DNA of 22,267 bases from Clostridia bacterium (GTDB taxonomy: Bacteria; Bacillota_A; Clostridia; Oscillospirales; CAG-272): contig JAFUQY010000362.1 of assembly GCA_017472105.1 (NCBI GenBank), forward strand, positions 1 to 22,267, written 5' to 3'. Shown piece after piece: positions 1,997-19,453 of the stretch (position 1 is its first letter; every line of letters begins with the position of its first letter). The position numbers and the translations under genes were made by a program. The notes beneath the pieces are model-generated. The model did not search any database and was not told where the DNA came from. It saw only the letters and a program-made list of their open reading frames with translations.

Positions 1997-2515
1997 TCAC
2001 AGATTTTTCCGGATCCGCTCGACGGCGCTTTTTTCCAGCCGGGAGACCTGTGCCTGCGAGATGCCGATTTCCGCGGCGATTTCCATCTGTGTCTTGCCGG
2101 CGTAGTAGCGTTTGGAGATGATGGTGCGCTCCTTTTCCGTCAGATGCGCGATGGCTTCTCTGAGTGCGATGTCCTCCAGCCACAGCTCGTCACTGCTGTT
2201 CTCGTCGCAGAGCTGATCCATGACGCAGATGGAGTCCCCGCCGTCGCTGTACACCGTTTCGTAGAGGGAAACCGGCTCCGTGATGGCTTCGAGCGCGTAG
2301 CTCACATCCGACGGCTTCTCTCCCAGCTCTTTCGCGATGGCTTCAACGGTCGGTTCCCCGTCAAACTGTGCCGCCAGCTTTTCCCTCGCACCGAGCGCAC
2401 GGTATGCCAGATCCCGCACGGAACGGCTGACACGGATTGTCTGATTGTCACGGAGAAAACGCCGGCATTCGCCGAGTATCATCGGAACGGTTATGGAATG
2501 GCGAAAATATTTCAT
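1997..2515 (-). CDS. sigG: Sigma-G, C-terminal part (regions 2.4-4) of an interrupted sigG
   Basis: From PMILGECRRFLRDNQTIRVSRSVRDLAYRAL to KTQMEIAAEIGISQAQVSRLEKSAVERIRKNL this follows the sigma-G family closely: region 2.4 for -10 recognition, region 3, and the region 4 helix-turn-helix. YSDGGDSICVMDQL is the sigma-G form of the region 3/4 linker. Only codons from base 2485 down belong to sigG. The first ten residues (MKYFRHSITV) are read from element DNA. There is no region 1.2/2.1-2.3, so this product alone cannot be a working sigma factor. The matching N-terminal part is 16.7 kb away at 19453-19167, same strand and frame. The apparent ATG at 2515 overlaps the recombinase TGA (ATGA), so a sigma3-sigma4 fragment could be made by translational coupling. 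Joined to the other part, sigma-G would be 257 residues. Confidence 0.95.
   Translation of the reverse strand: MKYFRHSITVPMILGECRRFLRDNQTIRVSRSVRDLAYRALGAREKLAAQFDGEPTVEAIAKELGEKPSDVSYALEAITEPVSLYETVYSDGGDSICVMDQLCDENSSDELWLEDIALREAIAHLTEKERTIISKRYYAGKTQMEIAAEIGISQAQVSRLEKSAVERIRKNL
2468..2510 (-). other. Attachment site at the sigG 3' junction (element/host hybrid att site)
   Basis: On the minus strand the element arm ends ATAACCGTT, then CC (2485-2484), then host codons GATGATACTC (P-M-I-L of sigma-G). The hexamer GGCGAA lies at positions 15-20 from the centre on the element side (2500-2505) and at positions 11-16 on the host side (2468-2473, read on the minus strand). This is the partner of the site at 19142-19184. 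The recombinase gene ends 26 nt from the core, a usual arrangement for large serine recombinases. Confidence 0.88.
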
Positions 2516-4077
2516 TCCTCCGGATTCTGCCGGGTCAGATAGTCTTTCAGCTTCAGAAACACCTCAACCTCGCCGGTTTTGTATATCACGACGCGCTCGA
2601 TCAGCTCACGGCAGACCGACTGGCGCTCCTTCGGCGTCATGTATTCCCACGTGTCGCCCAGTCCGGTGAGAATCCGCTTCGCTTTTTCGACCTTCCGTGC
2701 GATGTTCTTCTGCTCGCTTTCGCTTCGGAGCTGGGCTTCGAGATCGCGGATTTTCTTCCGGCAGGTCTGGATTTTTTCCGTCAGCACGTCGTCCTCGAGA
2801 TCATCCTCGAAATCAAGAAGCCGCGACAGCTTGCGCTTGAGCGTGAGAATCTGCTGGGTAATCACCTCCGACGGATCGATCCGCCCGGGGCTTTTTTCGT
2901 TGTTCCCGTCTGGGATGTAGGAGAGCGAGAAAATCTCGTGCATCACCGCGTTCTCGATCTCACTCTGCCAGTACAGCGGATTCGGGCAGTTTTCGTCCTT
3001 CACGAGGTACGGCTTCGACTTCTGCCGCGAGTAGCAGACCAGTTTGCATTCGTCACTCCCCGTCCACTTCTGATACCGCATTTTCGCACCACATTCGCCG
3101 CAGTACAAAAGTCCCGTGAGAAGGTACTCCGACTCTCCGCGGACGACGGTGCGTCTGGCGATTTCATCCTGTGCCTCCTGCCAGACTTCCAGCGGAATGA
3201 TCGCCTCGTGCAGTCCGTCGTATTCCTCACCCTTGTAGACGATGCATCCGGTGAGGGATTTCCGTCTGAGAATCTGCGCAACAATGCGTTCGCCCTTGAA
3301 GCCGAGCCTGTCCGCGATCTTCGCCGGGGGCATTTTTTCTTCGATGTACAGCCGGAAGATTTCACGCACCTTTTCCGCTTCCTCCGGGACGATTTTCAGA
3401 ATGCCGTCCTCCCTGTCGTAGCGGTAGCCGTACGGGATATTGCCGCCGCCCATCCATCTGCCGGATGCGACACGCGCAGTTTTGCCCGCCTGCAATTTTT
3501 CAACAATGAGATCGCGGTCAAATTCCGCAAGACCTGCGAAGAACATCAGCATGAACTTGCCCTGCGGGTTGTTCCGCTCGATGCGGCAGTAGTTTTCGGC
3601 GACGGAGATGAACTCGATGTCCTCCCGGTTGCGGTTGACCGCGCTGTTTTTGCTGTCGAAGCTTGCAACCATGTAGTCCTGAATGAACTGGAGCGTGCCG
3701 AGCAGGGTTCTGCTGAGACGGTCGATCCGCGGGACAATGAAGGCGTTTACACGGATGCGGGATTCCCCGTCGTTGTATGCGCGGATGCGTGCGATGACTG
3801 CCTGCAATGCGGGTCGGTCCATGTTCGTGCCGGTGTAGCCGTCGTCGATGCACAGGAGCAGATTCGGGATCCCGTTGCGTTCGCAGTAGGTGCGGATCGT
3901 GTTCTCCTGCACGTTCAGTCCGAAGCCTTCCTCCGCCTGCTTGTCCGTCGAAACGCGGATGTAGCCGATGTTCACAAGGTAGTTTCCGTTCCCGTCGGTC
4001 TGTACAGCGTCGTCAATCAGGATTTTTTCGTTGTATGCCGGTTCTATCAGCCGGGACAATCGGTATTCTCTGTTCAT
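2512..4077 (-). CDS. Large serine recombinase (SpoIVCA-like site-specific integrase/excisionase)
   Basis: The 521-residue protein has the serine recombinase order. The catalytic domain starts GYIRVSTDKQ, with nucleophile Ser43, and continues through DDGYTGTNMDRPAL and the arginine motif IDRLSR (R120, R123). A recombinase domain follows (GGNIPYGYRYD...RRKSLTGCIVYKGEEYDGLHEAII). Then comes a zinc ribbon (C326, C329, C348, C364) and a charged C-terminal coiled-coil region (about 395-470). About 35 extra residues precede the catalytic domain. GGAAGG lies 7 nt before ATG 4077. The stop lies 26 nt from the attachment core, so this is the enzyme expected to join and separate sigG and the element. 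Family knowledge: B. subtilis SpoIVCA excises skin from sigK, and such enzymes need a directionality factor for excision. Expression looks vegetative from the promoter at 4109-4137. Confidence 0.96.
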   Translation of the reverse strand: MNREYRLSRLIEPAYNEKILIDDAVQTDGNGNYLVNIGYIRVSTDKQAEEGFGLNVQENTIRTYCERNGIPNLLLCIDDGYTGTNMDRPALQAVIARIRAYNDGESRIRVNAFIVPRIDRLSRTLLGTLQFIQDYMVASFDSKNSAVNRNREDIEFISVAENYCRIERNNPQGKFMLMFFAGLAEFDRDLIVEKLQAGKTARVASGRWMGGGNIPYGYRYDREDGILKIVPEEAEKVREIFRLYIEEKMPPAKIADRLGFKGERIVAQILRRKSLTGCIVYKGEEYDGLHEAIIPLEVWQEAQDEIARRTVVRGESEYLLTGLLYCGECGAKMRYQKWTGSDECKLVCYSRQKSKPYLVKDENCPNPLYWQSEIENAVMHEIFSLSYIPDGNNEKSPGRIDPSEVITQQILTLKRKLSRLLDFEDDLEDDVLTEKIQTCRKKIRDLEAQLRSESEQKNIARKVEKAKRILTGLGDTWEYMTPKERQSVCRELIERVVIYKTGEVEVFLKLKDYLTRQNPEE

Positions 4078-4108
4078 GTTTATGCCTTCCGTGGGGTTTC
4101 ATGAGGAT

Positions 4109-4137: not shown

Positions 4138-4170
4138 ACGGAAAAATCAGGAAGAATCCGACAACAGCAG

Positions 4171-4209: not shown

Positions 4210-4223
4210 CGGAATATGCGGCG

Positions 4224-4458: not shown

Positions 4459-6246
4459 TTATCCGATCAGCTCCGTTTCACACAGCACGAGAGCAAGACA
4501 GCCTTCCAGTCCGCCGATGAGACAGATGCCGGGGATCCGGAAATCCCGCTCGTATGCGTCGTCTCCTGTGAGCAGAAGTGCCGCCCGCTCTAGCTTCGCG
4601 GATTTCACGTTTCCGCATAACGCCAGCGCACAAACCGCCGCTCTTGCCGCACATCCGTCCGCGTACAGAGTCACATCACACCCGGATTCCGCCGCCGCCT
4701 GGATGAGAAGTGCAGCGTCCTGTACGCGGAGTGCGTCCGTGGTGCAGTTGAACGTCGTATAGTATCTGTTGTCCGCGGCAGTTCCGGCAACGTCAATCAC
4801 GCATGCCGCCGTCTCACCGGTCAGAAGCAGATCCCCGGACACGACCCGGACGCCATCCTCCAGCATCCCGCGGACTTCATCCCTCCCGAGACAGCACTTG
4901 CCGTCACCGCTGAGCATGAGGCAGACGCGTTTCCCATCCCATCCGGCGGGAGTCAGCTTCACATACGGGAGCTTTTCGCCGTATTCGCCGCAGATCACAC
5001 TCCGCTCAACGGTGACGCCGTCCCACTCCTCAGTTGAAATTCCGATCTCGCGCACCGTGTTTTCCCGCACACCGGTGATCCACGCGAGCATTTTCCGCTT
5101 TTCGCCGTCGTCCAGAGCCGAAATTTTTGCCGTGCGCTCCGCTTTGTATGCGCGGAAAAATGCTTCGTCATCCGCAATGCCCGGGGCGCGTCCGTTTCCG
5201 CGGAACCACGTGAGATCCCACACATCCGCGACCTCGATGGGCTGTTCGTTCCAGACGATATTCTTGCCCATCAGATGCCGCGCGAAGAAGCTGTACACGC
5301 GATGCCGGGTCTTGGCGTTGTACTGATGCGTCGCAATCTGATAGAAATGCTCAACCATGTCCTCAGCACCGTACTGCCGGTAGGCTTCAAGCACCGCAGG
5401 CAGTTCCGCCGTTTCGAGATTTTTCGTCCAGTCACCGTCGGATCCAGCCAGAAACAGCGCACGCGGAGCAAGCATGGCGCACATTTCGGTGTTGTCGGTG
5501 AACCGTCTCAGTCCCGGGGCATTTTCGCACTGGCATCCGCCCTGCATGTGGAGCGAAATCATGTTGATCGGTGCGGCAGCCTTGATTCTCTCGTCGACGA
5601 GGCTGAGGAACAGGGTCTGCGAGCCGCCGCCGGATGCCCCGGTCACGCCGATGTTGTCCGCATCCACGAAAGGCATGGAGCAGAGCAGATCGAGCGCGCG
5701 GATGTTGTTCCACAGCTGAACGCCGAGTCCGTTCGAGAGCCACAGCTCCTTCGTTCCCCTGCCGTAGTCGTGGGAAATCTGCCGGCTGTCGACCTTGCCG
5801 ATCATGTCGGTGACAAGGCAGACGAATCCCATCCGCGCGAAGTTCGCAAGCTGTGCGGGATAATCCGCTTCGTCGAGCCGGGTCAGCCGCTGATTCTCCC
5901 AGTGTCCGATGACATTCAGAATCGCAGGTGCTTTTTCGGGCATCGGCTCGGGCAGGTAGAGATTGCCGGTTGACCAGAATCCCGGGCGGCTCTCGAACAT
6001 GATTTTCTTCACGGAGTAGCCGTCGTATGTACCGACATTCTCGGTTTTCGTGTTCAGCGGCATCTTTTCCGGCCATGGATACAGTCCCGCCGCCATCCGG
6101 AGATTGAACCGCAGCTCTTCCCGGCGTCTGTCTACCTCCTCGGCGGAGTGAAACCGCGTGATCGGGAAGACCGTGTTCGTGTGCCGGCTGACATGGAGGC
6201 GTTCGTCGTCCGGCAGATAGGTGAGTACTTTGTACATCTCGTTCAT
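4459..6246 (-). CDS. Alpha/beta hydrolase, acetyl xylan esterase-like
   Basis: The 595-residue protein has a core of about residues 70-330 with an alpha/beta-hydrolase fold. It contains the nucleophile elbow GASGGGSQT (Ser205), a likely acid in LFLAGSDGDW (Asp270 or Asp272) and a catalytic His in QIATHQYN (His307). WSTGNLYLPE...ILNVIGHWENQR and FVCLVTDMIGKVDSR resemble the large acetyl xylan esterase/dienelactone-hydrolase-like proteins of polysaccharide degraders. The C-terminal ~230 residues have a second, hydrolase-like repeat without a clear active site. There is no signal peptide, so it should act in the cytosol, perhaps removing acyl groups from imported oligosaccharides. It has its own promoter at 6282-6310. 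The exact ester substrate is unknown. The start could also be ATG 6237. Confidence 0.85.
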   Translation of the reverse strand: MNEMYKVLTYLPDDERLHVSRHTNTVFPITRFHSAEEVDRRREELRFNLRMAAGLYPWPEKMPLNTKTENVGTYDGYSVKKIMFESRPGFWSTGNLYLPEPMPEKAPAILNVIGHWENQRLTRLDEADYPAQLANFARMGFVCLVTDMIGKVDSRQISHDYGRGTKELWLSNGLGVQLWNNIRALDLLCSMPFVDADNIGVTGASGGGSQTLFLSLVDERIKAAAPINMISLHMQGGCQCENAPGLRRFTDNTEMCAMLAPRALFLAGSDGDWTKNLETAELPAVLEAYRQYGAEDMVEHFYQIATHQYNAKTRHRVYSFFARHLMGKNIVWNEQPIEVADVWDLTWFRGNGRAPGIADDEAFFRAYKAERTAKISALDDGEKRKMLAWITGVRENTVREIGISTEEWDGVTVERSVICGEYGEKLPYVKLTPAGWDGKRVCLMLSGDGKCCLGRDEVRGMLEDGVRVVSGDLLLTGETAACVIDVAGTAADNRYYTTFNCTTDALRVQDAALLIQAAAESGCDVTLYADGCAARAAVCALALCGNVKSAKLERAALLLTGDDAYERDFRIPGICLIGGLEGCLALVLCETELIG

Positions 6247-6281
6247 TCTGCAATGCCCATCCTTTCCGGGTGTTTTTCTTT

Positions 6282-6310
6282 ATTCTACCATGCATTTTCG
6301 GGTGTGTCAA
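6282..6310 (-). promoter_or_regulatory. Sigma-A-type promoter of the hydrolase
   Basis: TTGACA (6310-6305) and TAGAAT (6287-6282) on the minus strand, spacer 17 nt, 36 nt before the ATG at 6246. Confidence 0.75.
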
Positions 6311-6324
6311 TCAATCCGGCGCGT

Positions 6325-6369
6325 TTTTATCAAGAAAAGCCCCGGACACTGTTCGGCATCCGGAGCTTT
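6325..6369 (-). terminator. Intrinsic terminator after the aldo/keto reductase
   Basis: On the minus strand AAAGCTCCGGA (6369-6359) pairs along its whole length, with one G-T pair, with TCCGGGGCTTT (6346-6336). TTCTTG and further T-rich sequence follow. It lies 29 nt beyond the reductase stop and just upstream of the hydrolase promoter. Confidence 0.78.
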
Positions 6370-6397
6370 GTTGGATTCTGTTTTCTTTTTGACGCGA

Positions 6398-7531
6398 TTA
6401 TTCGCAGAGAATCTTGCAGACCTTTTCGAGGTTTTCGCGGATTGCGAGGTGCTGGGGACATTTCTGTTCGCAGATGCCGCACTTCTTGCAGTCAGCGAAG
6501 GTCTTGCCGCCGTGGTGGAGGTAATCCTTCATCATGTTCTTCGCGTGATCCTTGAGACCGTAGACGTTGTAGTAGGTCCAGATTTCGAAGATGCGCGGGA
6601 TGTTGATTTCAACCGGGCAGGGCTGGCAGTATTTGCATCCGGTGCAGTAGAGCTCGGAGAACTTCTTGATTTCTTCCATAGCCGCGCCGAGCTGTTCCCA
6701 CTCTTCCGCAGAAAATGCGGTGTCGTCGGAGGAAACCTTGACGTTCTTCTGTACCATGTCGAGGTTCTGCATGCCGGAAAGTGCGCAGTTGAGGCTGGGA
6801 TTGCCGAGGCAGAACTTGAACGCGAGCTCGTAGGTGGAGATGGACGGCTTGCCGGTGAGTTTTGCGTACAGATCCGTGGGAGCCGCGAGACGTCCGCCGC
6901 CGACAGGACCCATGGCAACGGTGCCGAGACCCTTTTCGTTCACGTACTTGATCATTTCTTCGTTGGAACGGTCGAGGAGGTTGTACTGGCACAGCATGGA
7001 TTCCATCTTCACGCCGCGTTCCTCGGAGGTGTCAACGATGTACCGGATTGCGGAGGGATGGTCGTGGAAGGAGAAGGAAATGTGGCGGATGAGTCCCTCT
7101 TCCTTTGCCTTCCGTGCGGCTTCGAGGAGGTTTTCGGCGAGAATCAGATTGTCATAGGTGCCGCGGTTGATGCCCCAGAAGTGGTAGAAATCGATGTGAT
7201 CGGTTCCGAGACGGGTAAGGCTGCGTTCAAGATGCCTGCGGTAGCCGTCCTGACCCATCCCCTTGTCCATGGGACATTTGGTGGAGATGAGAATCTTGGC
7301 GCGGAAGTTCTTTACAGCGTGACCGAGAGCGGCTTCGCTGTTGGAGTTGCAGTAGTGAGGTGCGGTATCGAAGTAGTTCACGCCGTTTTCGTAGGCGTAT
7401 GCGATCATTTCGTCAACCTTGTCCTGATCGACGAAGTTCTTTTCGTCCTGCTTGTATTCGGGGAAACGCATGCAGCCGAAGCCGAGTGCGGAGATTTTCT
7501 CTCCGGTTTTGCCGAATTCGCGGTAATTCAT
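6398..7531 (-). CDS. Aldo/keto reductase with C-terminal 4Fe-4S ferredoxin domain
   Basis: Residues 1-285 form an aldo/keto reductase barrel (REFGKTGEKISALGFGCMRFP start) with the catalytic set Asp55, Tyr60, Lys85 and His117. The last ~85 residues carry two four-cysteine motifs, CTGCKYCQPCP (C296, C299, C302, C305) and CKKCGICEQKCP (C348, C351, C354, C358), expected to bind two 4Fe-4S clusters. Such fused reductases are common in anaerobic Clostridia and presumably couple carbonyl reduction or sugar-alcohol oxidation to ferredoxin-type electron flow; the substrate is not known. Length of 377 is normal for this subfamily. AAAGGA lies 9 nt before ATG 7531. It is a single-gene unit with its own promoter and terminator. 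Confidence 0.93.
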   Translation of the reverse strand: MNYREFGKTGEKISALGFGCMRFPEYKQDEKNFVDQDKVDEMIAYAYENGVNYFDTAPHYCNSNSEAALGHAVKNFRAKILISTKCPMDKGMGQDGYRRHLERSLTRLGTDHIDFYHFWGINRGTYDNLILAENLLEAARKAKEEGLIRHISFSFHDHPSAIRYIVDTSEERGVKMESMLCQYNLLDRSNEEMIKYVNEKGLGTVAMGPVGGGRLAAPTDLYAKLTGKPSISTYELAFKFCLGNPSLNCALSGMQNLDMVQKNVKVSSDDTAFSAEEWEQLGAAMEEIKKFSELYCTGCKYCQPCPVEINIPRIFEIWTYYNVYGLKDHAKNMMKDYLHHGGKTFADCKKCGICEQKCPQHLAIRENLEKVCKILCE

Positions 7532-7566
7532 GGGATGGATTCCTTTCGGGATATGTATTTTTAAAT

Positions 7567-7595
7567 ATTATAGCACATAATTTTAATAATAGCAA
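7567..7595 (-). promoter_or_regulatory. Sigma-A-type promoter of the aldo/keto reductase
   Basis: TTGCTA (7595-7590), a 17-nt AT-rich spacer and a consensus TATAAT (7572-7567) on the minus strand, 36 nt before the reductase ATG. Confidence 0.78.
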
Positions 7596-7676
7596 CCCCT
7601 GTATGCCGGATTTATACAATTTCTGTGATTTTCCGGAAAAACTGTGTCGTTTTGGCATACTCCCACGTCAGCCGGC

Positions 7677-8294
7677 TCACCGCACGATATAGTCAAACCG
7701 CTCGATGCGCGTGATTCCGATCTCCCGCAGAACGGCTTCGCTCCGGTTCCGGTGTTCGTCCGTGTTGTAGTCCGGAATCAGGGGCAGGCGTACGCGGATG
7801 TTCGCGGGATCGGTCAGCGTGACGAGAAGACGGAGGTTGTCCAGTGCCGTCGTGACTTCCCTGCCCGTGTACGCGCGGTAGACGGCGGGATCGGTGTCCT
7901 TGATATCGACAATGAAGCCGTCCATGACCTCTGCGGCAACCCGGACATTCTTCTCCGGCACGCTCAGGCTGGTTTCGGCGTACAGCTTCCATTTCGTGCC
8001 GCAGAGAGCGCGGAATCCGGGAAAAAAGTCCGCGTACAGGAGCGGTTCACCGCCGCCGAAGGTCACGCCGCCGCCGGTTGCCTCAAAATACAGGGAGTCC
8101 AGTTTCACCCTGTCGTACAGCTCCTGCGGCGTGAGGCGTTCGGATTTGGTGTTCTCATCCCATGTGAACCGGTTGATGCAGTACGCGCACCGCAGAGGAC
8201 AGCCCATCCCGCAGACGAGTGTGGTAACGCCCTCGCCGTCGGTTGCCATCCGGAGCCGCGATACTGCCGCCGCCGGAAAGACCGGTCCCGTCAT
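7677..8294 (-). CDS. Radical SAM protein, glycyl-radical-activase-like
   Basis: The protein has 205 residues with the radical SAM cluster motif CPLRCAYC (C32, C36, C39; another Cys at 28) and the SAM-contact motif TFGGGEP (about residues 78-84). The TGGGVTFGGGEPLL stretch and the overall size resemble pyruvate formate-lyase-type activases. No glycyl-radical enzyme gene is present in this window, and the extra ferredoxin domain of many activases is missing. Its ATG overlaps the stop of the upstream Cys-rich membrane protein (8291-8294, ATGA), so the two are translationally coupled and probably work together. The substrate may be that partner protein or an enzyme encoded elsewhere. No clear terminator follows. 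Confidence 0.85.
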   Translation of the reverse strand: MTGPVFPAAAVSRLRMATDGEGVTTLVCGMGCPLRCAYCINRFTWDENTKSERLTPQELYDRVKLDSLYFEATGGGVTFGGGEPLLYADFFPGFRALCGTKWKLYAETSLSVPEKNVRVAAEVMDGFIVDIKDTDPAVYRAYTGREVTTALDNLRLLVTLTDPANIRVRLPLIPDYNTDEHRNRSEAVLREIGITRIERFDYIVR

Positions 8295-8917
8295 GGCGTC
8301 TCACCGGCATCCGGTTCCGGGAGTCTGATATCCCCTTCGAGGATGACCTCATCCGTCTCTTCGATCAGCGGAATTCCGCCTGCAATCTCGGTCATCTCCT
8401 CTGTTTCTTCAACAATCAGGACTTCGCCTTCTTCCAACTCGGGCAGCTGCTCCGTCTCATCAGCCACCGGAACACCGGCTGTGGTTTCGGTCACTTCGAC
8501 TTCGCCTTCTTCCATTTCCCATGCCGGCTCGCCTTCCGTGACGACGCATTCCGTCTGCTCGGGTTCCGTCTGTTCCGTCGCGGCAACGGCGCCCGATGTG
8601 GTTTCCGCCAGCATGTCACCCTCGAGCGTCGCAATTTCGTTTGTAATCCCCTTTGCGATTTCCTTCACGGTGTCAATCGGCGAGCATGATGTCAGCAGAA
8701 ATCCGGCTGAGATACCGGCGAGTGCGATTTTTCTGCCGGATGCGCGGCGTTTTTCCAGCTCCCGCTCCAGCATGCGGACTTCCCATTCGCATCTCGGGCA
8801 GGTTCCGCGGCATTTTCCCTTGTGCGTGCATTCCTCGATGACAAAGCGGATGTCGTTCTGCTCGGCAATCTGCCGCCGGATTTCCTTGAGAATTCTGCAT
8901 TTCTGTTTTCCTGTCAT
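8291..8917 (-). CDS. Cys-rich N-terminal membrane-anchored protein, unknown function
   Basis: Residues 1-60 are basic with five cysteines (C7, C30, C36, C40, C43; ...EECTHKGKCRGTCPRCEWE...) arranged like a metal or Fe-S site. A hydrophobic stretch IALAGISAGFLLTSCSP (about 63-80) resembles a lipobox but lies too far from the N-terminus for a normal signal. The rest is a very acidic low-complexity tail (EEGEVEVTETT, ELEEGEVLIVEETEEM repeats). I recall similar short proteins in gut Firmicutes but know of no function. AGGAGG lies 7 nt before ATG 8917. The leader (AGACA...CCAACGAA..ACAGGAG) resembles that of the lipoprotein gene at 9535. It overlaps the radical SAM gene by 4 nt. Confidence 0.75.
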   Translation of the reverse strand: MTGKQKCRILKEIRRQIAEQNDIRFVIEECTHKGKCRGTCPRCEWEVRMLERELEKRRASGRKIALAGISAGFLLTSCSPIDTVKEIAKGITNEIATLEGDMLAETTSGAVAATEQTEPEQTECVVTEGEPAWEMEEGEVEVTETTAGVPVADETEQLPELEEGEVLIVEETEEMTEIAGGIPLIEETDEVILEGDIRLPEPDAGETP

Positions 8918-9001
8918 AGTGATTCCTCCTGTTCGTTGGGTTCTGTCTTAATAGACGGATTCACGGGCGGATTTGTTCCAGCCTGACGGAAAATTTCTGC
9001 A

Positions 9002-9535
9002 TTATCCGGAAATTTTTATCTCACTGAGGTACACCGACCCATCCATGCCGCTCCAGTTTACGGAGAAATACCTTGTCGCGCCGGTGCCGTCCGTGTAGGA
9101 GACCGCGCAGTACGGGATGGTTTCAGGAATCATCATCGTCACGCACCACGCTTTCTCCGGCGTCAGCTCACCGTACCGGAAAATTTCGTCCGCAGTGAAC
9201 GTGATGCTCTCGCCGAACTCCACGGTCAGGGCATGCAGAGTGAAATCGCGCACGGCACTGTCGGTTGTGAAGACGACTTTCGACGCGTATCCGGAGTCGG
9301 TGACGGCATATTCGTCGTATTCCCCGGTGTATTCGGATGCGTACATTGCCCGCACGTCCGGGTTTTCGGCGTATTCGGGCTCCGGTGCGGCGGTTTCGGC
9401 ATCAGATTCGGCGGAAGTTTCGGGTACAGCAGTCTCATTCGGTACGGTTTCCGATGCGGTTTCGCCGGGATCTGCGGATCGGCATCCGGTCAGAAGCATG
9501 ACGGCAAGAAAAACAGCGGTCAGGGTTCGGATCAT
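9002..9535 (-). CDS. Small secreted lipoprotein, unknown function
   Basis: The product has 177 residues. MIRTLTAVFLAVMLLTGCRS is a lipoprotein signal with lipobox LTGC, followed by a Thr/Glu/Ala-rich spacer (about 20-55) and a compact C-terminal domain (about 60-177: VRAMYASEYTGEYDEYAV...ISG). I do not recognise the domain. I choose ATG 9535 because AGGAG lies 7 nt upstream and the lipobox follows directly. The longer frame from 9637 would run through the promoter. It should be anchored outside the membrane. Confidence 0.8.
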   Translation of the reverse strand: MIRTLTAVFLAVMLLTGCRSADPGETASETVPNETAVPETSAESDAETAAPEPEYAENPDVRAMYASEYTGEYDEYAVTDSGYASKVVFTTDSAVRDFTLHALTVEFGESITFTADEIFRYGELTPEKAWCVTMMIPETIPYCAVSYTDGTGATRYFSVNWSGMDGSVYLSEIKISG

Positions 9536-9568
9536 GATTTTTCTCCTGTTTTCGTTGGTGTTGTCTTT

Positions 9569-9597
9569 ATTATACGGGTCCGGTGCGGAAAAGTCAA
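9569..9597 (-). promoter_or_regulatory. Sigma-A-type promoter of the lipoprotein gene
   Basis: TTGACT (9597-9592), 17-nt spacer and TATAAT (9574-9569) on the minus strand, just downstream of the terminator of the sugar operon and 34 nt before the lipoprotein ATG. Confidence 0.82.
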
Positions 9598-9605
9598 TGC
9601 CGGAG

Positions 9606-9652
9606 AAAAAAGCCGCACGGCGTTCTGCGAAATTCACAGAAAACCGTGCGGC
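9606..9652 (-). terminator. Intrinsic terminator of the GH32-fructokinase-binding protein operon
   Basis: On the minus strand GCCGCACGG (9652-9644) and CCGTGCGGC (9620-9612) pair perfectly and are followed by six T (9611-9606). An inner TTCTG/CAGAA pair extends the hairpin. It lies 31 nt after the binding-protein stop. Confidence 0.92.
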
Positions 9653-9683
9653 AATGGTATGTCAGTTTATACTTCCGGTAGAA

Positions 9684-11225: not shown

Positions 11226-11282
11226 TGCAGTTTCTCCTTGGTTTTTAGTTATATTTTATATGTATTCGGGAGCTTGGTTCGG

Positions 11283-12152: not shown

Positions 12153-12169
12153 AGTTGTAACACCCTTTC

Positions 12170-13774
12170 TTAAAGTGCGAGTTTTTTCAGTTCGATGCGG
12201 TCGATCACGGCAGGTTCGCTTCCCTCTGCGGTGAAAACTGCGTAGCATCGGTTGTAATTGAGCGTCCACGGGGTTGTCATGATTGCCTTGCCGCCGCTGA
12301 CGAAAATCTCGACGCTTCCCTTGTCGATGATGCATTTCACTTCGGGTTTGGAAGCCGAGACGGAAATGGGCATCGTGTCCCGTCTGACGCGGATGGTATT
12401 CCGGGGACATTCGAGAAGAATCTGCTGACCGAAAATGTCGATGCGGATATTGGACGCCGCCTTTGCGGAATCGAAGGCAAGATCGAGTTCATACGCGCCC
12501 TCTTCCAGCTCGACGCGGAAGTCGTTTCCCTCGGACAGCGTGACATCGGTGAACTCCTTTTTCTCACAGCAGAGAGCATCAAGCTCCTTCACGGGAGATG
12601 CGCAGAGATAATAGCCGTCCTTGCGCTCGGTCAGGGTCATCCGGCAGGGTACGCTCATCTGACCGCAGAGAGGTGCGTTTCCGAAGGTGCAGTTTCTGTC
12701 CCACGCGATCTGGATGCGCTCCATTTCGTCGTCGGTCGAGAAGGTCTGCCCTGCGTAGCGGCTTCCGCCGTTGTTGAGCGGACGGGAACTCTGCACAACC
12801 TCGAACCGGTCCTTCACGGCTTCGCAGACGATGTAGTGATGGGACGCGCCGCTGAGAATCCACTTTCGCTTGGCGGGATTGCCGTCGGCGTTGAGCGGAT
12901 AGAAATCGGGGCATTCCGAGTCCCGCTCGATCCGGAGCGTCTGAAGCGGCTCCCAGTCGAGGAGATTTTCCGAGGTGAGAAGCTGGTATTCACTGCGATC
13001 GAGGTAGAGAGCCATGACGAATTTGCCGAGCTCCTCACACCAGATGACCTTCGGGTCACGGTTGTCCGCAGCGATGTGGTCCACCACGGGATTCTTTTCG
13101 TATTTTGTAAATGTCATGCCGCCGTCGTTGGAGTACGCGATGCACTGGGTGAACTTCTTCCCCTGAGAGCGGAAGGAATTATTGCCGGCGCAGGTGTAGA
13201 ACAGCAGAATGACGTCCTCATCCCCCGTGCGGAGTCCGGATCGGTTTTCGTGGTCGACGATTGCACTGCCGGAGAACATGGTGCCGTCGTCATCGGGATA
13301 GAGCGCGTGCTCGCAGTGCTGCCAGTGGAAGAGATCCTCACTGACGGCGTGTCCCCAGTGCATGTTGCCCCAGATCCAGTCGTAGGGATTGAGCTGGTAG
13401 AACATGTGCCACACGGTCTTCCCCGTCACGGGAGAGGTGTATTTCAGGAGACCGTTCGGGTCATTGTTCCAGCCGTATTTCGGCGTGAAGTGCAGAATGG
13501 GTCTGAATGCCTCACCTGCCGTACCGTGATCCGGCGTGTCGGTCTGCATATCGCGCAGCTCCATGTCCGGGGAGACGGCAAGGGTGATTTCCTGTCCCAT
13601 GTATTCTCCGATGGGATAGTAGGAATAAGCCGTGGGATTGCGGTAATCCAGCCGGAGCGTGATGTCGTCGAACACCGTGCCGTCCTTCATGAACCGCACC
13701 TGATGATTTCCTACGAATCCGCTGACCGGCAGAATCAGAAATCCGGCTCTGACGGAAATTTTCATTTCGCCCAT
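12170..13774 (-). CDS. Glycoside hydrolase family 32 (sucrose/fructan beta-fructosidase)
   Basis: The protein has 534 residues with no signal peptide, so it acts in the cytosol on imported sugar. After a ~90-residue N-terminal beta domain it carries the GH32 set: nucleophile Asp105 in WNNDPNG, transition-state Asp240 in NRDPK, and acid/base Glu287 in ECPDFYP. QLNPYDWIWGNMHWGHAVSEDLFHW is the second GH32 signature. A C-terminal beta-sandwich follows (about 400-534). It hydrolyses terminal fructose from sucrose or fructo-oligosaccharides. I start at ATG 13774, since AGGAGG lies 9 nt upstream; the ATG at 13795 lies upstream of that ribosome site. It is the first gene of an operon with fructokinase and binding protein, divergent from the AraC regulator. 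Confidence 0.94.
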   Translation of the reverse strand: MGEMKISVRAGFLILPVSGFVGNHQVRFMKDGTVFDDITLRLDYRNPTAYSYYPIGEYMGQEITLAVSPDMELRDMQTDTPDHGTAGEAFRPILHFTPKYGWNNDPNGLLKYTSPVTGKTVWHMFYQLNPYDWIWGNMHWGHAVSEDLFHWQHCEHALYPDDDGTMFSGSAIVDHENRSGLRTGDEDVILLFYTCAGNNSFRSQGKKFTQCIAYSNDGGMTFTKYEKNPVVDHIAADNRDPKVIWCEELGKFVMALYLDRSEYQLLTSENLLDWEPLQTLRIERDSECPDFYPLNADGNPAKRKWILSGASHHYIVCEAVKDRFEVVQSSRPLNNGGSRYAGQTFSTDDEMERIQIAWDRNCTFGNAPLCGQMSVPCRMTLTERKDGYYLCASPVKELDALCCEKKEFTDVTLSEGNDFRVELEEGAYELDLAFDSAKAASNIRIDIFGQQILLECPRNTIRVRRDTMPISVSASKPEVKCIIDKGSVEIFVSGGKAIMTTPWTLNYNRCYAVFTAEGSEPAVIDRIELKKLAL

Positions 13775-13860
13775 GAGTGTTTCCCTCCTGTGCATTAATG
13801 ATAATTTTTGACGCCCAAATCTATATTCTTTGCCTATTTAAAAATTGATTTCAACTATGG

Positions 13861-13899
13861 TATAATATATATTATACAGGATAACGCAGAGCTATGCAA
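13861..13899. promoter_or_regulatory. Overlapping face-to-face promoters for the GH32 operon (-) and araC-type gene (+)
   Basis: On the minus strand TTGCAT (13899-13894), 17 nt and TATAAT (13876-13871) form a promoter for the GH32 operon, with a leader of about 90 nt. On the plus strand TGGTATAAT (13858-13866) is an extended -10 for the regulator gene; its -35 region (TTAAAA) is weak. The two -10 elements form the palindrome TATAATATATATTATA (13861-13876), so polymerases at the two promoters would exclude each other. Confidence 0.7.
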
Positions 13900-13933
13900 T
13901 ATCCAAAATTGATGGAATTGGTAAAAATCCGAC

Positions 13934-14728
13934 ATGATTCACTTGATTAACGGTCCCGGATACGACAAAACGGAAGTCCTGAACACCCTCGAGGTCTGCG
14001 GTATCACCTATACCGACGTCAAGAAAAACTGGATTCACCGAGAGCGCTTTCTGCCCGCGGATCAGATGATCTTTCTGCTCAAGGGCGAGCTGTATCTGGC
14101 CGTGAACGATACCCAATACACGATCCGCAGGAACAGCTTTTTCTACATCCGCCAGTTCAGCACCGTATCCGGCTACAAAACCTCCGACATGCCGTGCGAG
14201 TTTTACACGGTTTCCTTTAACGCAACGAAGATTGACATCCCGGACCGTACCGAAATTCCGCTCAACGGAAACAATATTTTCATCGAAGAGCTTGCCAAGA
14301 GGCTGTATGACGCCCGCTCCTGCATCGGTCAGGAAGAAAACCAGTGCGAGATTCTCTTCCTCTCCCTGCTGCATGAGGTGAAGCGGTTCCTCTCTGCCGG
14401 AAGCAGCACCTTCCCGCTGATGGAACAGACGATGAATTACATCAACAACAATATCAACAATCCCATCACGGTGGATTCCATCTGCGACCACCTCGGATAC
14501 AACCGCGACTACATTTCCAAGCAGTTCCTGCGGTGCTACGGGATCAGCATCAAGAAGTACATCGACCGGAAGAAAATCAGCGCGGCGAAGCATCTTCTGA
14601 TCTCATCGAAAATGTCGCTGGAGGAAATTGCCGCCGCCATCGGATTCGAGAACGCACAGCAGTTCTACAAATTCTTCAACTACCACGAAAACATCTCGCC
14701 GACGCAGTTCCGCAACCGCAATGCGTGA
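13934..14728 (+). CDS. AraC-family transcriptional regulator
   Basis: The protein has 264 residues. Residues ~1-130 are a cupin-type sensor domain (FLPADQMIFLLKGELYLAVNDTQYTIRRNSFFYIR). Residues ~160-264 hold two helix-turn-helix units (ITVDSICDHLGYNRDYISKQFLRCYGISIKKYI and MSLEEIAAAIGFENAQQFYKFFNYHENISPTQFR). It is transcribed away from the GH32 operon through overlapping promoters and most likely regulates that operon in response to a sugar. The ribosome site (GGAATTGG, about 11 nt upstream) is weak. Its stop codon directly abuts the CotH gene stop, leaving no room for a terminator. It is the only plus-strand gene inside the element. Confidence 0.93.
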   Translation: MIHLINGPGYDKTEVLNTLEVCGITYTDVKKNWIHRERFLPADQMIFLLKGELYLAVNDTQYTIRRNSFFYIRQFSTVSGYKTSDMPCEFYTVSFNATKIDIPDRTEIPLNGNNIFIEELAKRLYDARSCIGQEENQCEILFLSLLHEVKRFLSAGSSTFPLMEQTMNYINNNINNPITVDSICDHLGYNRDYISKQFLRCYGISIKKYIDRKKISAAKHLLISSKMSLEEIAAAIGFENAQQFYKFFNYHENISPTQFRNRNA

Positions 14729-16678
14729 TTACTCAATCCCGAGATCGGATCGGATCCATGCATCACGCGCCCTGAGCCAGTCCTTGAGGTACTGCACGTT
14801 TTCCATGTAGTCCGCGCTCGGATTGTCGTATTCGCAGAAGAAGTACTTCGTCGTCAGGCTGTATCCGCCGAGCTCGTAGTTGCGCAGGAACGCGTCGCCG
14901 AACTCTTCGATGTAGCTGTCAATCATGCCGCCGTCCGCGTACATGGTTTCAATCGCGGGAATCAGCTCGGTGTAGCGCTCCTTCACGAGATCACGGAACC
15001 AGCGCGCTTCCATGAGCGGATCATAGAAATCGACCGTCGCCCAGTTGCCCGTGGTGCTGTCGTTGCGCTTGCCGTTGCCGTACTTCTCCAGTCCGTGGAT
15101 CGAGTTGTGGTACTTCGCGTATTTCGAGTCCGCGGCGCCTTCCTCAAAGGAGACATTGCCCATGCTCAGGTCCATATCCCAGATCGGGCCGGAGTAGAGC
15201 TTTTCGTTCTTATAGTAGAAATACGTCGAGCCGTGGAAAATGTCAATGTCCTTCATCAGCTCCTCGCAGATGTACATGTTCACGAAGGAGTCGATATCGA
15301 GAATGCCTTCCACTCTCTCCCGGTCGCCGGAAATGCACGAGAATTCCGCTTCCTTGAGCAGCATCTTGATCGCTTGCTTCTGTTCCTCGGTTTCCTGACC
15401 GTGCTCGGGTGCAATGGGAACGAAGCGGATGCCGGCGATGGGCGTGTAGTTGAAGACCGATCCTGCCGCCTCGAGGTTGTAGTAGCCGTTTCTCTCAAGG
15501 AGCATTTCGCCCTTTTCGACTTCAACGTCCACCGTACCGTCCGTGACGGGCATTGTCAGCTGATAGCATCCCTTGTAATCCCCGTCGAGGTAGACTTCCA
15601 CGAAGGTGCTCTTCAGCTCGGGAGTGACGCCCGCGATTGCCGCAAAATCATATGCCAGCTTGTTGCGGATCAGAGTTTTGTCAAACAGGTTGGCGAGCAA
15701 ACACCATTTTCGGGTGCCCTTCATTCCGAGAATGGTCTTTTTGTTTTCAAACTTGATGTTGTAGGGATTCTTGACCGTATTGGCAGTGGAGTTGCCGCGC
15801 ACCTTGACCTGAACGGTTTCGGAGATGACGGGATATTTGCCGCCTTCCCTGTCAACGATCACGACTTCGGCTTCCCTGTAAGTTGTGCCGATGCTTGCCG
15901 CTTTCTCGGGCTTACTCAGATACGCGCCGACTTCCTCGAGCTGATACGGCATCGACGACGCAGTCAGCATACGCATGCGCATATACCGGGCACGTACCGT
16001 TGTGTCAAGCGTGAGTCCCTGGGTCTTGTATTTCGCACCATCTTCCACGACGCGGACGGTTGTCCAGTTTTCGCCGTCTTCGGACAGGTCAATTTCGTAG
16101 TTCTTTGCCGCTCCCTTGCCCCATTCGACAACGACATAGCCGATTTCGCGGATTCTGCCCCAGTCAAAGGTCAGGCAGTGCGCTTCGGTTTCGTCGGACA
16201 GCCAGTAGGTTTTGCTGTCACCGTCCACGGCAAGTGCGGTTGTTGTGTCGTCGGGATTCCCGTCATACGAAACGGCAGAATCTTCGGCGTAGTTGGGTGT
16301 GGGCGAATAGGTATTCAGATAAACACGCGGAACGTCGCCGCGAAGGTATTCGACAGCTTTATAGGCGTTGACCAGCTCTTCCGCCAGCGCACAGCATTCG
16401 GCATCATCCGGATTCTCCTGTGCCAGAAGCAGCTCGCCTTCCTCCGCCAGAGCCGTGAATGCGTTGTACCCTTCCGGTTCCAGCAGATCCTGCATCAGGC
16501 TGATCCCGCACAGCTCACGGATTTTCGCCTTGGCTTCCTCTGCATCGGTGAACATGGGCAGCTTTTCCGTCTCCGCCGATGCGGTTTCGTTCGTCTCCGC
16601 TGTTTCCGCCGGTGTCTCCTGTCCGCAGCCTGCCAGAAGAAGCATTCCCGCGAGCAGTATCCAAATTAGTTTCTTCAT
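14729..16678 (-). CDS. CotH-kinase-domain lipoprotein with discoidin-like (F5/8C) domain
   Basis: The protein has 649 residues. A lipoprotein signal (MKKLIWILLAGMLLLAGCGQ, Cys18) is followed by a Thr/Glu-rich spacer and a helical stretch. A discoidin/F5-8C-like carbohydrate-binding region follows (about 117-260: DDTTTALAVDGDSKTYWLSDE...ARYMRMRMLTASS). Then comes a CotH domain (about 270-620) with VKVRGNSTANTVKNPYNIKF, FDKTLIRNKLAYDFA, EVYLDGDYKGCYQL and the metal/catalytic-type motif GPIWDMDLSMGN. CotH of spore formers is a protein kinase of the spore coat, but many clostridial CotH proteins are cell-surface proteins, and the lipobox favours a surface role here. ATG 16678 is chosen for the signal peptide and AAAGGA 9 nt upstream. 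Its substrate is unknown. Confidence 0.9.
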   Translation of the reverse strand: MKKLIWILLAGMLLLAGCGQETPAETAETNETASAETEKLPMFTDAEEAKAKIRELCGISLMQDLLEPEGYNAFTALAEEGELLLAQENPDDAECCALAEELVNAYKAVEYLRGDVPRVYLNTYSPTPNYAEDSAVSYDGNPDDTTTALAVDGDSKTYWLSDETEAHCLTFDWGRIREIGYVVVEWGKGAAKNYEIDLSEDGENWTTVRVVEDGAKYKTQGLTLDTTVRARYMRMRMLTASSMPYQLEEVGAYLSKPEKAASIGTTYREAEVVIVDREGGKYPVISETVQVKVRGNSTANTVKNPYNIKFENKKTILGMKGTRKWCLLANLFDKTLIRNKLAYDFAAIAGVTPELKSTFVEVYLDGDYKGCYQLTMPVTDGTVDVEVEKGEMLLERNGYYNLEAAGSVFNYTPIAGIRFVPIAPEHGQETEEQKQAIKMLLKEAEFSCISGDRERVEGILDIDSFVNMYICEELMKDIDIFHGSTYFYYKNEKLYSGPIWDMDLSMGNVSFEEGAADSKYAKYHNSIHGLEKYGNGKRNDSTTGNWATVDFYDPLMEARWFRDLVKERYTELIPAIETMYADGGMIDSYIEEFGDAFLRNYELGGYSLTTKYFFCEYDNPSADYMENVQYLKDWLRARDAWIRSDLGIE

Positions 16679-16715
16679 CTGATCGGATCCTTTCAGAAAT
16701 CGCAGTGTATGCAAA

Positions 16716-16743
16716 GAGAGGTGATCCTTGCCGAACACCTCTC
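16716..16743 (-). terminator. Hairpin between the surface protein and CotH genes
   Basis: On the minus strand GAGAGGTG (16743-16736) pairs with CACCTCTC (16723-16716), followed by a short TTT. A second small hairpin ATCGGA/TCCGAT lies just upstream, nearer the surface protein stop. The T-run is short, so termination may be partial and CotH may be partly read through from upstream. Confidence 0.55.
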
Positions 16744-16782
16744 CTTACATTATGCATCGGACTCTCATCCGATAATTTTCAA

Positions 16783-18309
16783 TTAGTTTCTCTTCTTGGA
16801 AACTGCGTAGCCTGCTGCGGAAACGATTGCTGCAACTGCTGCGATTACTGCTGCGTCGAAGGTCTGGGGAGCTTCAACAACTTCTTCAGCAGCGGGAGCT
16901 TCGGTTTCAACAACTTCTTCAACTGCGGGAGCTTCGGTTTCAGCCTCGGTTTCAGCAACGGGAGCTTCGGTTTCTGCAACGGGAGCTTCAGTTTCAGCTT
17001 CGGTTTCTGCAACGGGAGCTTCGGTTTCTGCAACGGGAGCTTCGGTTTCAGCTGCGGGAGCTTCAACAGTGCCGGTGGATGCAACGAGTTCCTTGGTGCC
17101 GTCGGGATAGATGGTGTACTGTTCAGCGCCGACAACTTCGCTTACCTTGAAGGAAGTGAATTCAACGGAACCGGTCCAGGTCATAACGCCGAGCCAGCAG
17201 CCGGTCCATTCGGTGTTTTCGATCTGACCGAACAGCTTGCCTTCGGAGTAGAGGTAGAACATGCCGTTGTCGATTTCGATACCGATGGTGAGGGGCTTGT
17301 TGTTGGTGAAGTCAGTGCTGTAAAGCTGAACTTCCTTGGCAAGACCAGGGCCGAATGCACGGGTGGAAGGTCTGCCGATTTCCATGTTCATGCAGTTCCA
17401 GCTTTCGAAGGGAGCTTCGTAGCTGTTTCTTGCCATCATGATACCGAATGCCTGACCTTCGGTAACGTTACCGGTCATTTCGATGTAAACATGATCGTCA
17501 GCTTCGATGCGGTAGTCGGTCATGTATGCGGTGTCGCCGAGAGCAGCGTTGGGAGCAACGAGCTTGCCGTCAACCCAGTTGTATTCGCCGTTAACAACGG
17601 TCTTGAAGTTTTCGGCAACAAGAAGGTCGGTGGTTTCGCCGAGGGCGAGGGTTCTTTCGTCGTAGGGCTTTTCTTCGATAACCATCTCGATCTTTTCGGG
17701 TTCGTACTTTTCGCCGGTGCCGAGACGGGTGATGGAGTAGGAGGTGTATTCAGCGTTGCAGAAGAAGGTCATGAGACCAACGTATGCGCCGATCCATTCG
17801 TCATTCTGACGTTCGCCGTAGAGTTCACCGTTGAAGTAGCATCTGAAGATGTTGTCTTCGGTGATTTCGAGAGCGAGGGTGTAGGGCTGACCGGTGGTGA
17901 GGTTGGTGTTGAGAACCTTAGCTTCATCGGGGTTAGCAACACCGGGACCGAAGAGACGGGAGTCCAGTCTGTTCAAGTCGATGTTGATGCAGTTCCAGGA
18001 TGCGAAGGGAGCGGAGGGATCAATGAGGGCAAGCATGATACCCCATGCCTGACCTTCGGTGATGGTACCGGTAGCTTCGAGAACTACGTGTTCGCCGACG
18101 TCAACGAAAACATCGGTCATGATTGCGGTGTCGCCGATGTCCTTGTTGGTGGCAACGAGCTTGCCGTCAACCCATTCCCATGTACCGCCGCTGGGAAGGT
18201 TCAGGTAGTCTTCGGAAAGAAGATCAGTTGTTTCTGCTGCAAAAACATTCATTGCAAGGCAAGCGATCATGCAGACAGAGACGAATAATACTGCGAATAA
18301 CTTTTTCAT
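16783..18309 (-). CDS. Secreted two-module surface protein with APQTFD-type C-terminal anchor
   Basis: The protein has 508 residues. A signal peptide (MKKLFAVLFVSVCMIACLAMNVFAA) is followed by two homologous modules of ~200 residues. Each has WVDGKLVA.N...GDTA.MTD, HV..E.TG..TEGQA.GIM, APF.SWNC.N and FGPG, then a lectin-like (LamG/DUF1080-type) beta pattern. Both could bind glycans. Next comes a linker of Thr-Glu-Ala-Pro repeats and the end APQTFDAAVIAAVAAIVSAAG...SKKRN. That end is a hydrophobic anchor with positive tail preceded by a PQTxD motif like clostridial sorting signals. AGGAGG lies 8 nt before ATG 18309. Its strong promoter, clean ribosome site and repetitive linker suggest an abundant surface protein. 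The binding target is unknown. Confidence 0.82.
   Translation of the reverse strand: MKKLFAVLFVSVCMIACLAMNVFAAETTDLLSEDYLNLPSGGTWEWVDGKLVATNKDIGDTAIMTDVFVDVGEHVVLEATGTITEGQAWGIMLALIDPSAPFASWNCINIDLNRLDSRLFGPGVANPDEAKVLNTNLTTGQPYTLALEITEDNIFRCYFNGELYGERQNDEWIGAYVGLMTFFCNAEYTSYSITRLGTGEKYEPEKIEMVIEEKPYDERTLALGETTDLLVAENFKTVVNGEYNWVDGKLVAPNAALGDTAYMTDYRIEADDHVYIEMTGNVTEGQAFGIMMARNSYEAPFESWNCMNMEIGRPSTRAFGPGLAKEVQLYSTDFTNNKPLTIGIEIDNGMFYLYSEGKLFGQIENTEWTGCWLGVMTWTGSVEFTSFKVSEVVGAEQYTIYPDGTKELVASTGTVEAPAAETEAPVAETEAPVAETEAETEAPVAETEAPVAETEAETEAPAVEEVVETEAPAAEEVVEAPQTFDAAVIAAVAAIVSAAGYAVSKKRN
16869..17068 (-). repeat. Tandem Thr-Glu-Ala-Pro coding repeats
   Basis: Degenerate 18-nt units encode alternating APVAETE blocks of the linker before the surface anchor. 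The phase is kept in codons, so this is a protein-level repeat. Such tracts expand and contract easily. Confidence 0.85.
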
Positions 18310-18378
18310 CTTGTTATCCTCCTCTGAAAAATAGCAAAAATTACCCAATTCATCAGCAGAATCAGGTTTGCTGTTATC

Positions 18379-18407: not shown

Positions 18408-18571
18408 GAGAAAGATTACGACATTTTGGAAAATTTCCGACTTTTTCGTTGTGAATACCGTTTTTTCACATCTGATTTTCGTCTTATTTGTCGGACTTTA
18501 TAAATTCCGCGAACAATTGTCTGCCGGCGTCCTTCTGACAAGTCCTGGATCGTGTGCGCCGCGGAACGGAT

Positions 18572-19129
18572 TCAGTCCCCTGCCGGAAAACCGCAGTCAG
18601 AGCGGATTTTTACCCGCAGATGTGCCGTTTCGCCCGTTTTTCCGGCGTTTTTTCCCGATTCAAGCCCCAGATGGGCAAGCAGCTGACACCATCGGGTGAG
18701 ACCGTGATGCCGGCATACCGTGATCCAGCATGGTGTGGACGGACTGCGGTTTCTGTCAAATTCCCGTGCACTGCGGGGCTTGATTCTGCGGTAATCTTCG
18801 AGAAAAGCCGCGGTCAGCCGTTTGGTTTCCGATTCCGGTGAAATGTCGGTTTTTGGATAATTCCGCCTCATCCATTCTCCGCACGTTATTCCGTACCGGT
18901 TCCGGATCACGGTGTGCGGCGGCAGGGGGCGTTTCCCGAAATCCCGCACGGACGGTATGTATCCGTTTTCCGCGATGAACTGCTCGACGGCATCCCGGAT
19001 TCTTCCGTCCGTCCACGATGCAAGCGGCAGTTCGTGCATGATTTCGTAAAGGACCGCGATGACTTCCCCGTTCTCCCCGGATTTTCCAAGCCGTTCGGCT
19101 GCGGCTTCCAATGCCTGTTTCCTCGTCAT
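18572..19129 (-). CDS. Element-end protein with two tandem HTH-like repeats; candidate directionality factor
   Basis: The product has 185 residues starting MTRKQALEAAAERLGKSGEN. ATG 19129 is preceded by GGGAGGGAAC, a good ribosome site, and lies 38 nt inside the element from the sigG junction. Two similar stretches, GYIPSVRDFGKRPLPPHTVIRNRYGITCGEWMRRNY and IKPRSAREFDRNRSPSTPCWITVCRHHGLTRWCQLL, suggest a duplicated DNA-binding unit. They vaguely resemble the small repeats seen near homing endonucleases. I do not recognise a family. It is the first gene downstream of the sigG promoter in the integrated state, and the frame is open from the sigG 5' part into it. A role as excision directionality factor or regulator is inference from position only. 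Confidence 0.7.
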   Translation of the reverse strand: MTRKQALEAAAERLGKSGENGEVIAVLYEIMHELPLASWTDGRIRDAVEQFIAENGYIPSVRDFGKRPLPPHTVIRNRYGITCGEWMRRNYPKTDISPESETKRLTAAFLEDYRRIKPRSAREFDRNRSPSTPCWITVCRHHGLTRWCQLLAHLGLESGKNAGKTGETAHLRVKIRSDCGFPAGD

Positions 19130-19453
19130 GTTCCCTCCCGTATGCTTTCGACTTTCTATAACCGTTGGCACGGCGTAGGTCGAAAACTCCACTTCAAGCT
19201 CGGGATTGAAATTGTCAACCGCTTTAATCAGTCCGATGCAGCCAACCTGAAAGAGATCGTCCATGCTCTCGCGCCGGTTCGTAAAGCGCTGGATGATACT
19301 GAGCACAAGTCTGAGATTCCCGTCGATCAGTTCTTCCCGTGCCGCCATGTCTCCGTCTTTCGTCCGCCGCAGAAGATTCTTTTTCTCAAGTGACGTGAGC
19401 GTGGGAAGTCGTGCCGTGTTGACGCCGCAGATTTCTACTTTATTATAGTACAT
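18572..19453 (-). CDS. sigG: Sigma-G N-terminal part (regions 1.2-2.3) fused in frame to the element-end protein
   Basis: The first 96 residues (MYYNKVEICGVNTARLPTLTS...EELIDGNLRLVLSIIQRFTNR...DDLFQVGCIGLIKAVDNF...EFSTYAVP) are a clear sigma-G N-terminus. KVEICGVNT is its hallmark, followed by the core-binding and -10 melting part of region 2. After the Pro codon (19168-19166) the sequence leaves the family abruptly and reads 12 element-encoded residues (TVIESRKHTGGN) before the Met of the element protein, giving a 293-residue fusion frame. I start at ATG 19453 because GGAAGGG lies 6 nt upstream; the ATG at 19486 overlaps a candidate -10 and has no ribosome site. Region 2.4 and regions 3-4 are at 2485-1997. 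The fusion could bind core RNA polymerase but should not direct promoter use. Confidence 0.93.
   Translation of the reverse strand: MYYNKVEICGVNTARLPTLTSLEKKNLLRRTKDGDMAAREELIDGNLRLVLSIIQRFTNRRESMDDLFQVGCIGLIKAVDNFNPELEVEFSTYAVPTVIESRKHTGGNMTRKQALEAAAERLGKSGENGEVIAVLYEIMHELPLASWTDGRIRDAVEQFIAENGYIPSVRDFGKRPLPPHTVIRNRYGITCGEWMRRNYPKTDISPESETKRLTAAFLEDYRRIKPRSAREFDRNRSPSTPCWITVCRHHGLTRWCQLLAHLGLESGKNAGKTGETAHLRVKIRSDCGFPAGD
19142..19184 (-). other. Attachment site at the sigG 5' junction (host/element hybrid att site)
   Basis: On the minus strand the host codons ...TACGCCGTG are followed by CC (19168-19167) and then the element arm AACGGTTAT. GTCGAA lies at positions 15-20 from the centre in the element arm (19152-19147) and at 11-16 in the host arm (19179-19184 on the plus strand). 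Combined with the other junction, the element ends give ATAACCGTTCCAACGGTTAT, a perfect 9-bp inverted repeat around CC. The wider arms agree at 20 of 25 positions. Confidence 0.88.

Follow-up and report, generated by a model that had tools for sequence, protein, structure and literature searches.

The sporulation gene sigG is interrupted by a 16.7-kb integrative element in the 22,267-nucleotide stretch of Clostridia bacterium DNA analyzed here (assembly GCA_017472105.1, contig JAFUQY010000362.1, positions 1 to 22,267; hereafter, the window). This element belongs to a real and recurrent family of integrative elements that have sigG as their site. From sequence comparisons, we consider it likely that the recombinase-bearing element is excised precisely and that sigma-G would be made only afterwards. 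In model spore formers, sigma-G is the factor of the forespore, which becomes the next cell. Hence, inheritance of the element constitutes the main puzzle.

Results

The window carries a split sigG with recombination sites at both junctions

The 5' part of sigG (19166..19453, minus strand; residues 1 to 96, ending in FSTYAVP) and its 3' part (1997..2482, minus strand; residues 97 to 257 plus the stop codon) are open reading frames that share strand and frame and lie 16,683 bp apart. Both match the NCBIfam SigG model TIGR02850, the N-half frame over model positions 1 to 97 and the C-half frame over positions 90 to 253, each scoring on its own below the full-length cutoff. Joined, the two halves give 257 residues in frame and align without gaps to the intact 257-residue relatives P0070 and P0071. 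A sporulation-specific gene is thus interrupted, and exact removal of the insert would restore its reading frame. A first-pass annotation of the window had already placed both sigG termini on one strand and frame at this distance and had read the joined protein as a complete 257-residue sigma-G, in agreement with the coordinates, model matches, and alignments obtained here.

That annotation had also seen a large serine recombinase at one edge of the insert, and the corresponding domains were found in a protein of 521 residues (2512..4077, minus strand) that adjoins the C half of sigG. The element therefore encodes its own site-specific recombinase, with the resolvase, recombinase, and zinc-ribbon domain set of a large serine integrase and a catalytic-type serine 43 that is invariant in 12/12 aligned relatives. 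In phage records, its best match was to Dulem virus 39, at 37.4%; in plasmid records, the best match reached 30.2% and covered two thirds of the protein. At positions 2512 to 2515, an ATG overlaps the recombinase stop codon and reads on into the sigG C part.

Both junctions look like hybrid att sites of site-specific recombination. With approximate outer limits, they span 19143..19192 at the sigG 5' part and 2460..2509 at the 3' part, and they share a CC core (19167-19168 and 2484-2485, respectively) inside a proline codon, with sigG on the outside and the two element arms on the inside. The attP arms form inverted repeats at 19/24 positions in the window (about 6 are expected for random bases) and at 14 to 21 of 24 across the 14 genomes covered at both ends of the element. 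Inverted-repeat arms together with a two-base core in both junctions are what is expected of a large serine integrase and, as the CC core is not palindromic, the att sites should be directional. The same CCN-codon junction was present in 26/26 split N halves and 29/29 split C halves examined, window included; the queries for these counts were cut at this codon, the proof being the CC followed by arm sequence unrelated to sigG. An uncut sigG protein query gives matches that run past the junction, as the arms resemble the codons that would follow.

sigG-associated recombinases recur in Clostridia

A recombinase query against genome contigs yielded 12 loci, of which 11 (37 to 60% identity) are near a sigG part; no sigG part was present in the stretches examined of the twelfth, in Lysinibacillus (L012, 30%), or of a viral locus (L013, 26%). 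The recombinase was found in 4/247 genomes of one family by profile search (alignment A1, E <= 1e-110) and in 6/250, 7/38, and 18/300 genomes of three further families (alignment A2, E <= 1e-105). Across the contig scan and these four families, a sigG part lay within 3.2 kb of the recombinase in 40/40 genomes and within 150 bp in 31. Sampling 391 genomes from the whole class yielded 10 recombinases, 8 of them new, and only one of the new ones (G856) was at sigG in the stretches examined; no split sigG was found at the others (G893, G920, G951, G897, G1016, G1114, and G1194) in stretches of which the shortest was 3 kb. In total, the recombinase accompanied a sigG part in 41/48 genomes, so the sigG habit belongs to certain recombinase lineages and not to the whole clade. 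The seven related serine recombinases away from sigG are at L282 to L288.

Next to the recombinase is the sigG C part in 25/40 genomes and the N part in 15/40. Both sigG parts were on one contig in eight genomes, window included, and in 8/8 they have the common strand and the order required for excision. The inserts measure 16.7 kb in the window, 27.6 kb in G002, 32.5 kb in G062, 6.1 kb in G169, 3.4 kb in G197, 6.4 kb in both G660 and G723, and ~6.7 kb in G730. These relatives are mostly metagenome assemblies; the G062 contig reaches 3,219,924 bp. Suspected splits in G034 and G234 were dropped because of contig edges.

Phages and phage-like contigs use the same site

Among 85 viral loci, five carried a sigG part near the integrase (G841, G846, G847, the 66.7-kb G848, and MT839977), and the integrases of the IMG/VR contigs G841, G843, G844, and G846 to G848 are related to the window recombinase. 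An attP-like palindrome, recognized by eye, follows the integrase in related viral records that have no sigG part beside it. One example is Dulem virus 39 (PP511791), in which GTGCCAATGATT, corresponding to the sigG codons VPMI, lies 24 bp after the integrase gene within an inverted repeat identified by eye. Another is the 114.9-kb contig G844, which encodes tape-measure and minor tail proteins; its recombinase, palindromic attP, and MTRK (a gene described below) follow one another without interruption, and nothing in the record matches sigG. Thus, Dulem virus 39 and the IMG/VR contigs resemble the window in their integrases and in the sigG part or attP-like palindrome, but they are phages or phage-like, whereas the window element has no recognized phage structural gene. 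The 6.1-kb island of G169 and the phage-like contig G848 have three neighboring genes in common (68, 45, and 44% identity), the first being of the nicotinamide phosphoribosyltransferase type according to Pfam, and at least one small island looks phage derived. An integration module is thus common to islands and phages. What the first-pass annotation had proposed for a single locus, a site-specific recombinase element in sigG, is real and found again in many genomes of Clostridia as well as in phage-like contigs.

Cargo differs between elements

In the window, the cargo region (4459..18348) encodes an AXE1-like esterase, an aldo/keto reductase, a radical SAM protein, a PfkB kinase, a GH32 protein, an AraC regulator, and a CotH-domain protein, as well as at least four further proteins that match no Pfam family. 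No structural family was recognized among 10 insert proteins compared with PHROGs, Pfam having served for GH32, PfkB, and the recombinase, and the phage collection held no near DNA match to the window. The sugar-use enzymes and CotH-domain protein of the window have different counterparts elsewhere. The G001 insert carries Cas3, Cas5c, Cas8c, and Cas7c genes of a CRISPR-Cas I-C system (L081, 3522-9130), ~4 kb inside the sigG element, the G004 insert carries a DarTG pair (L004, 3471-5115), and the G005 insert carries a PglZ-like protein and PADLOC candidate proteins (L080, 15315-19506); the recombinases of the G004 and G005 elements are closely alike. The insert side of G197 encodes a formate-tetrahydrofolate ligase and that of G660 an aldehyde ferredoxin oxidoreductase; the G062 insert has polysaccharide-type genes, read by eye. 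Outside the window element, a protein with a Beta-lactamase2 domain (PF13354) is encoded at 21053-22099.

A candidate excision gene lies downstream of a sigma-F-like promoter

Just inside the sigG 5' part and in the same direction lies a gene for a protein of 185 residues (18572..19129, minus strand), named MTRK after the first residues of the protein, which is a candidate excision factor. Upstream of sigG, a sigma-F-like promoter (19486..19516, minus strand) was the sole match to the sigma-F consensus in the window, with none in 100 shuffles. As this promoter precedes the sigG start, a single transcript would cover the broken sigG and the window MTRK. In the window, G001, G004, G005, G006, G010, and G062, the sigG N part is followed immediately by MTRK, both genes pointing the same way. 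A copy truncated at the contig edge follows the N part in G007; the whole G002 element is turned around, which places MTRK next to the C part. Among ~5.8 billion proteins, 68 MTRK homologues were found, 11 of which continue the frame of a sigG N part that breaks off at YAVP or YGVP. The Pfam family HNH_repeat matches some of these homologues, with no match for the window MTRK, whose predicted fold (mean predicted local distance difference test score, 76; predicted template modeling score, 0.40) had no PDB match at E <= 0.001. Position and promoter suggest that MTRK may act as the excision factor, a role that cannot hold for every member of the family. A further protein, P0063, joins the MTRK start to the later part of a sigG C part, perhaps through a deletion or an assembly fault.

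The split gene remains under constraint

Pairwise synonymous divergence (dS) and the ratio of nonsynonymous to synonymous divergence (omega), calculated by the Nei-Gojobori method with our own script, fell into two regimes. In G564, G660, G723, G773, and G812, recombinase (dS, 0.22 to 0.60) and sigG C part (dS, 0.29 to 0.85) diverged in step, with omega values of 0.00 to 0.06 for the C part and 0.05 to 0.28 for the recombinase. Between G660 and G723, each with both sigG parts on one contig, amino acid differences affect 1/92 N-part and 1/161 C-part codons, whereas silent differences affect 21 and 29 codons, respectively. In G001 and G003 to G006, omega was 0.00 to 0.08 and the recombinase dS was mostly lower than that of sigG; part of this constraint may, therefore, predate insertion. 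In contrast, G007 and G008 have identical recombinases and saturated sigG differences, which marks a recent transfer. Wider pairs (with G546, G731, G593, and G588) were either saturated or had omega values of 0.16 to 0.29, and they allow no clean test.

None of the 57 coding halves (55 split halves and the 2 parts of the intact G008 gene) contains a stop codon. Of 20 split genomes tested, 17 encode SASP and 18 encode GPR, and none lacks both. With halves that diverged in step with the recombinase yet remained nearly unchanged in protein, and with SASP and GPR kept, the split sigG is probably rejoined and used in its carriers. An intact second sigG, the observation that the first-pass annotation had named as speaking against its proposal, was found in 1/29 split relatives searched: that of G008 (C150, L014) has 76% DNA identity to the split C half of the same genome and may belong to a different organism or a second strain within the bin. 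No intact sigG from the same species was found; across the 8000 scored candidates, 89% was the highest identity of a full-length protein.

Discussion

We propose a model in which the recombinase alone would integrate the element, and recombinase and MTRK together would excise it via the two hybrid end sites. A second factor is expected for excision by analogy with the skin element of Clostridioides difficile, in which the recombinase alone integrates and excision needs another protein (PMC5025042). Excision during sporulation is what we infer for the window: the sigma-F-like promoter would turn on the broken sigG in the forespore, the excision factor MTRK would be made from the same transcript, and sigma-G would follow once the DNA is rejoined. 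Since it is the forespore that lives on, the element would disappear from that lineage unless its excised circle went back in at germination. Such reinsertion would be the simplest answer to the inheritance puzzle, and it is favored by those lineages in which element and host gene have diverged in step for a long time. The full germ-line cycle, from sigma-F to MTRK, excision in the forespore, a circle in the spore, and reinsertion at germination, is put forward tentatively, as a possibility that we would not yet favor. If true, the timing of sigma-G would depend on a recombination cycle in the germ line, long kept and common to islands and phages.

Several observations weigh against such a model. 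MTRK was not found in the fully covered inserts of G169, G197, G660, and G723 (E <= 1e-10); for most other genomes, the DNA examined does not reach the MTRK end of the element. The recombinase, and not MTRK, adjoins the sigG 5' part in 15/40 genomes, so a read-through trigger cannot be general, and the germ-line cycle is weakened both by this opposite orientation and by the four whole inserts without MTRK. A strict sigma-F/G pattern precedes only 4/27 sigG starts (0.15 expected); the intact G008 gene accounts for one of the 27. Seven of the eight new class-wide recombinases are not at sigG. Scanning viral contigs for the attP pattern of the window and of group B returned none, and no excised junction or circle was seen. 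Moreover, an element that leaves the chromosome in the forespore should be absent from the spores if it does not reinsert. Lastly, the G011 family does not fit simple excision, because its sigG parts are on different contigs with core genes on the insert side. In G011 (C2 and C14; L140 to L148, genes named by eye), the parts are at least 132 kb apart, and in G530 (C78 and C91), at least ~175 kb; the recombinase lies with the N part, the C part being on another contig. For this family, an inversion, a resolution into two circles, and a fixed rearrangement all come into question; if the germ-line cycle holds, a large part of the chromosome would there be inverted or resolved by the same module.

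An alternative that keeps some weight, although we regard it as unlikely, is that sigG is a mere landing site, with excision being rare or phage induced and unrelated to sporulation, and spores arising only from cured cells or not at all. Recent spread (the identical recombinases and saturated sigG of G007 and G008), patchy presence across the four families (4/247, 6/250, 7/38, and 18/300 genomes), and the use of the same sigG site by phage-like contigs all comply with it. Nevertheless, some elements stayed in place while recombinase and sigG diverged in step and both sigG parts remained strongly constrained, and the forespore genes for SASP and GPR are kept in split genomes. An assembly error or a dead sigG is very improbable: most relatives are metagenome assemblies, but the same junction and matching att arms appear in many of them, including the 3,219,924-bp G062 contig, no split half contains a stop, and omega is 0.00 to 0.08 in close pairs. 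That the two parts act jointly as separate polypeptides without DNA joining is scarcely credible, despite the constraint on both and the start overlapping the recombinase stop (2512-2515) that reads into the C part, since the break falls inside FSTYAVP-MILGE, presumably the helix reading the -10 element by sigma factor anatomy, and since the sequences flanking it vary between elements.

Precise excision followed by sigma-G synthesis thus remains our preferred reading, and its consequences differ from those of known sporulation-gene elements. Genome surveys could score such Clostridia as lacking sigG, and hence as non-sporulating, though the gene is only split. No sigG-interrupting element was found in the literature searched, which left preprints and most subscription papers beyond its reach, and the first-pass annotation likewise knew of none. 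Its further proposal of a new class of sporulation-gene element holds for the target and the cell type, which are new, and not for the kind of element, which is known from skin, SPbeta, vfbin, gin, and yin.

The genes spsM, spoVFB, and yabG are mother-cell genes. They harbor SPbeta, vfbin, and yin, respectively, elements in sporulation genes like that of the window (PMC10747680). The sporulation-gene elements described in the papers cited here (PMC5025042, PMC5595907, and PMC10747680) sit in mother-cell genes. There, the mother cell is a dead end in which the element is lost while being kept in the spore, and Serrano and colleagues pointed out that elements in terminal-cell genes are safely inherited (PMC5025042). 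The gin element in gerE of Bacillus cereus ATCC10987 is, like the window element, non-phage and reported to have no phage structural genes, and a serine recombinase with an extra factor rebuilds its sporulation gene (PMC5595907); however, its target is a mother-cell regulator, and it carries three recombinase genes compared with one in the window element. The skin elements of Bacillus subtilis and C. difficile are likewise large serine recombinase elements inside a sporulation sigma factor gene, but sigK encodes a mother-cell factor and the rearranged DNA dies with that cell, whereas the target here is SigG, a forespore factor, which sets the window element outside the narrow skin type of mother-cell, terminal-cell genes. 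An excision in a cell line that lives on, as the window element would need, is described for the Listeria prophage in comK, which is not a sporulation gene and whose rearrangement is tied to growth in phagosomes (PMC5025042). sigG thus breaks the rule of the dead-end mother cell for sporulation-gene elements and, if it is rebuilt in the forespore, either reinsertion would be part of the life cycle of the element or spores would be cured each time.

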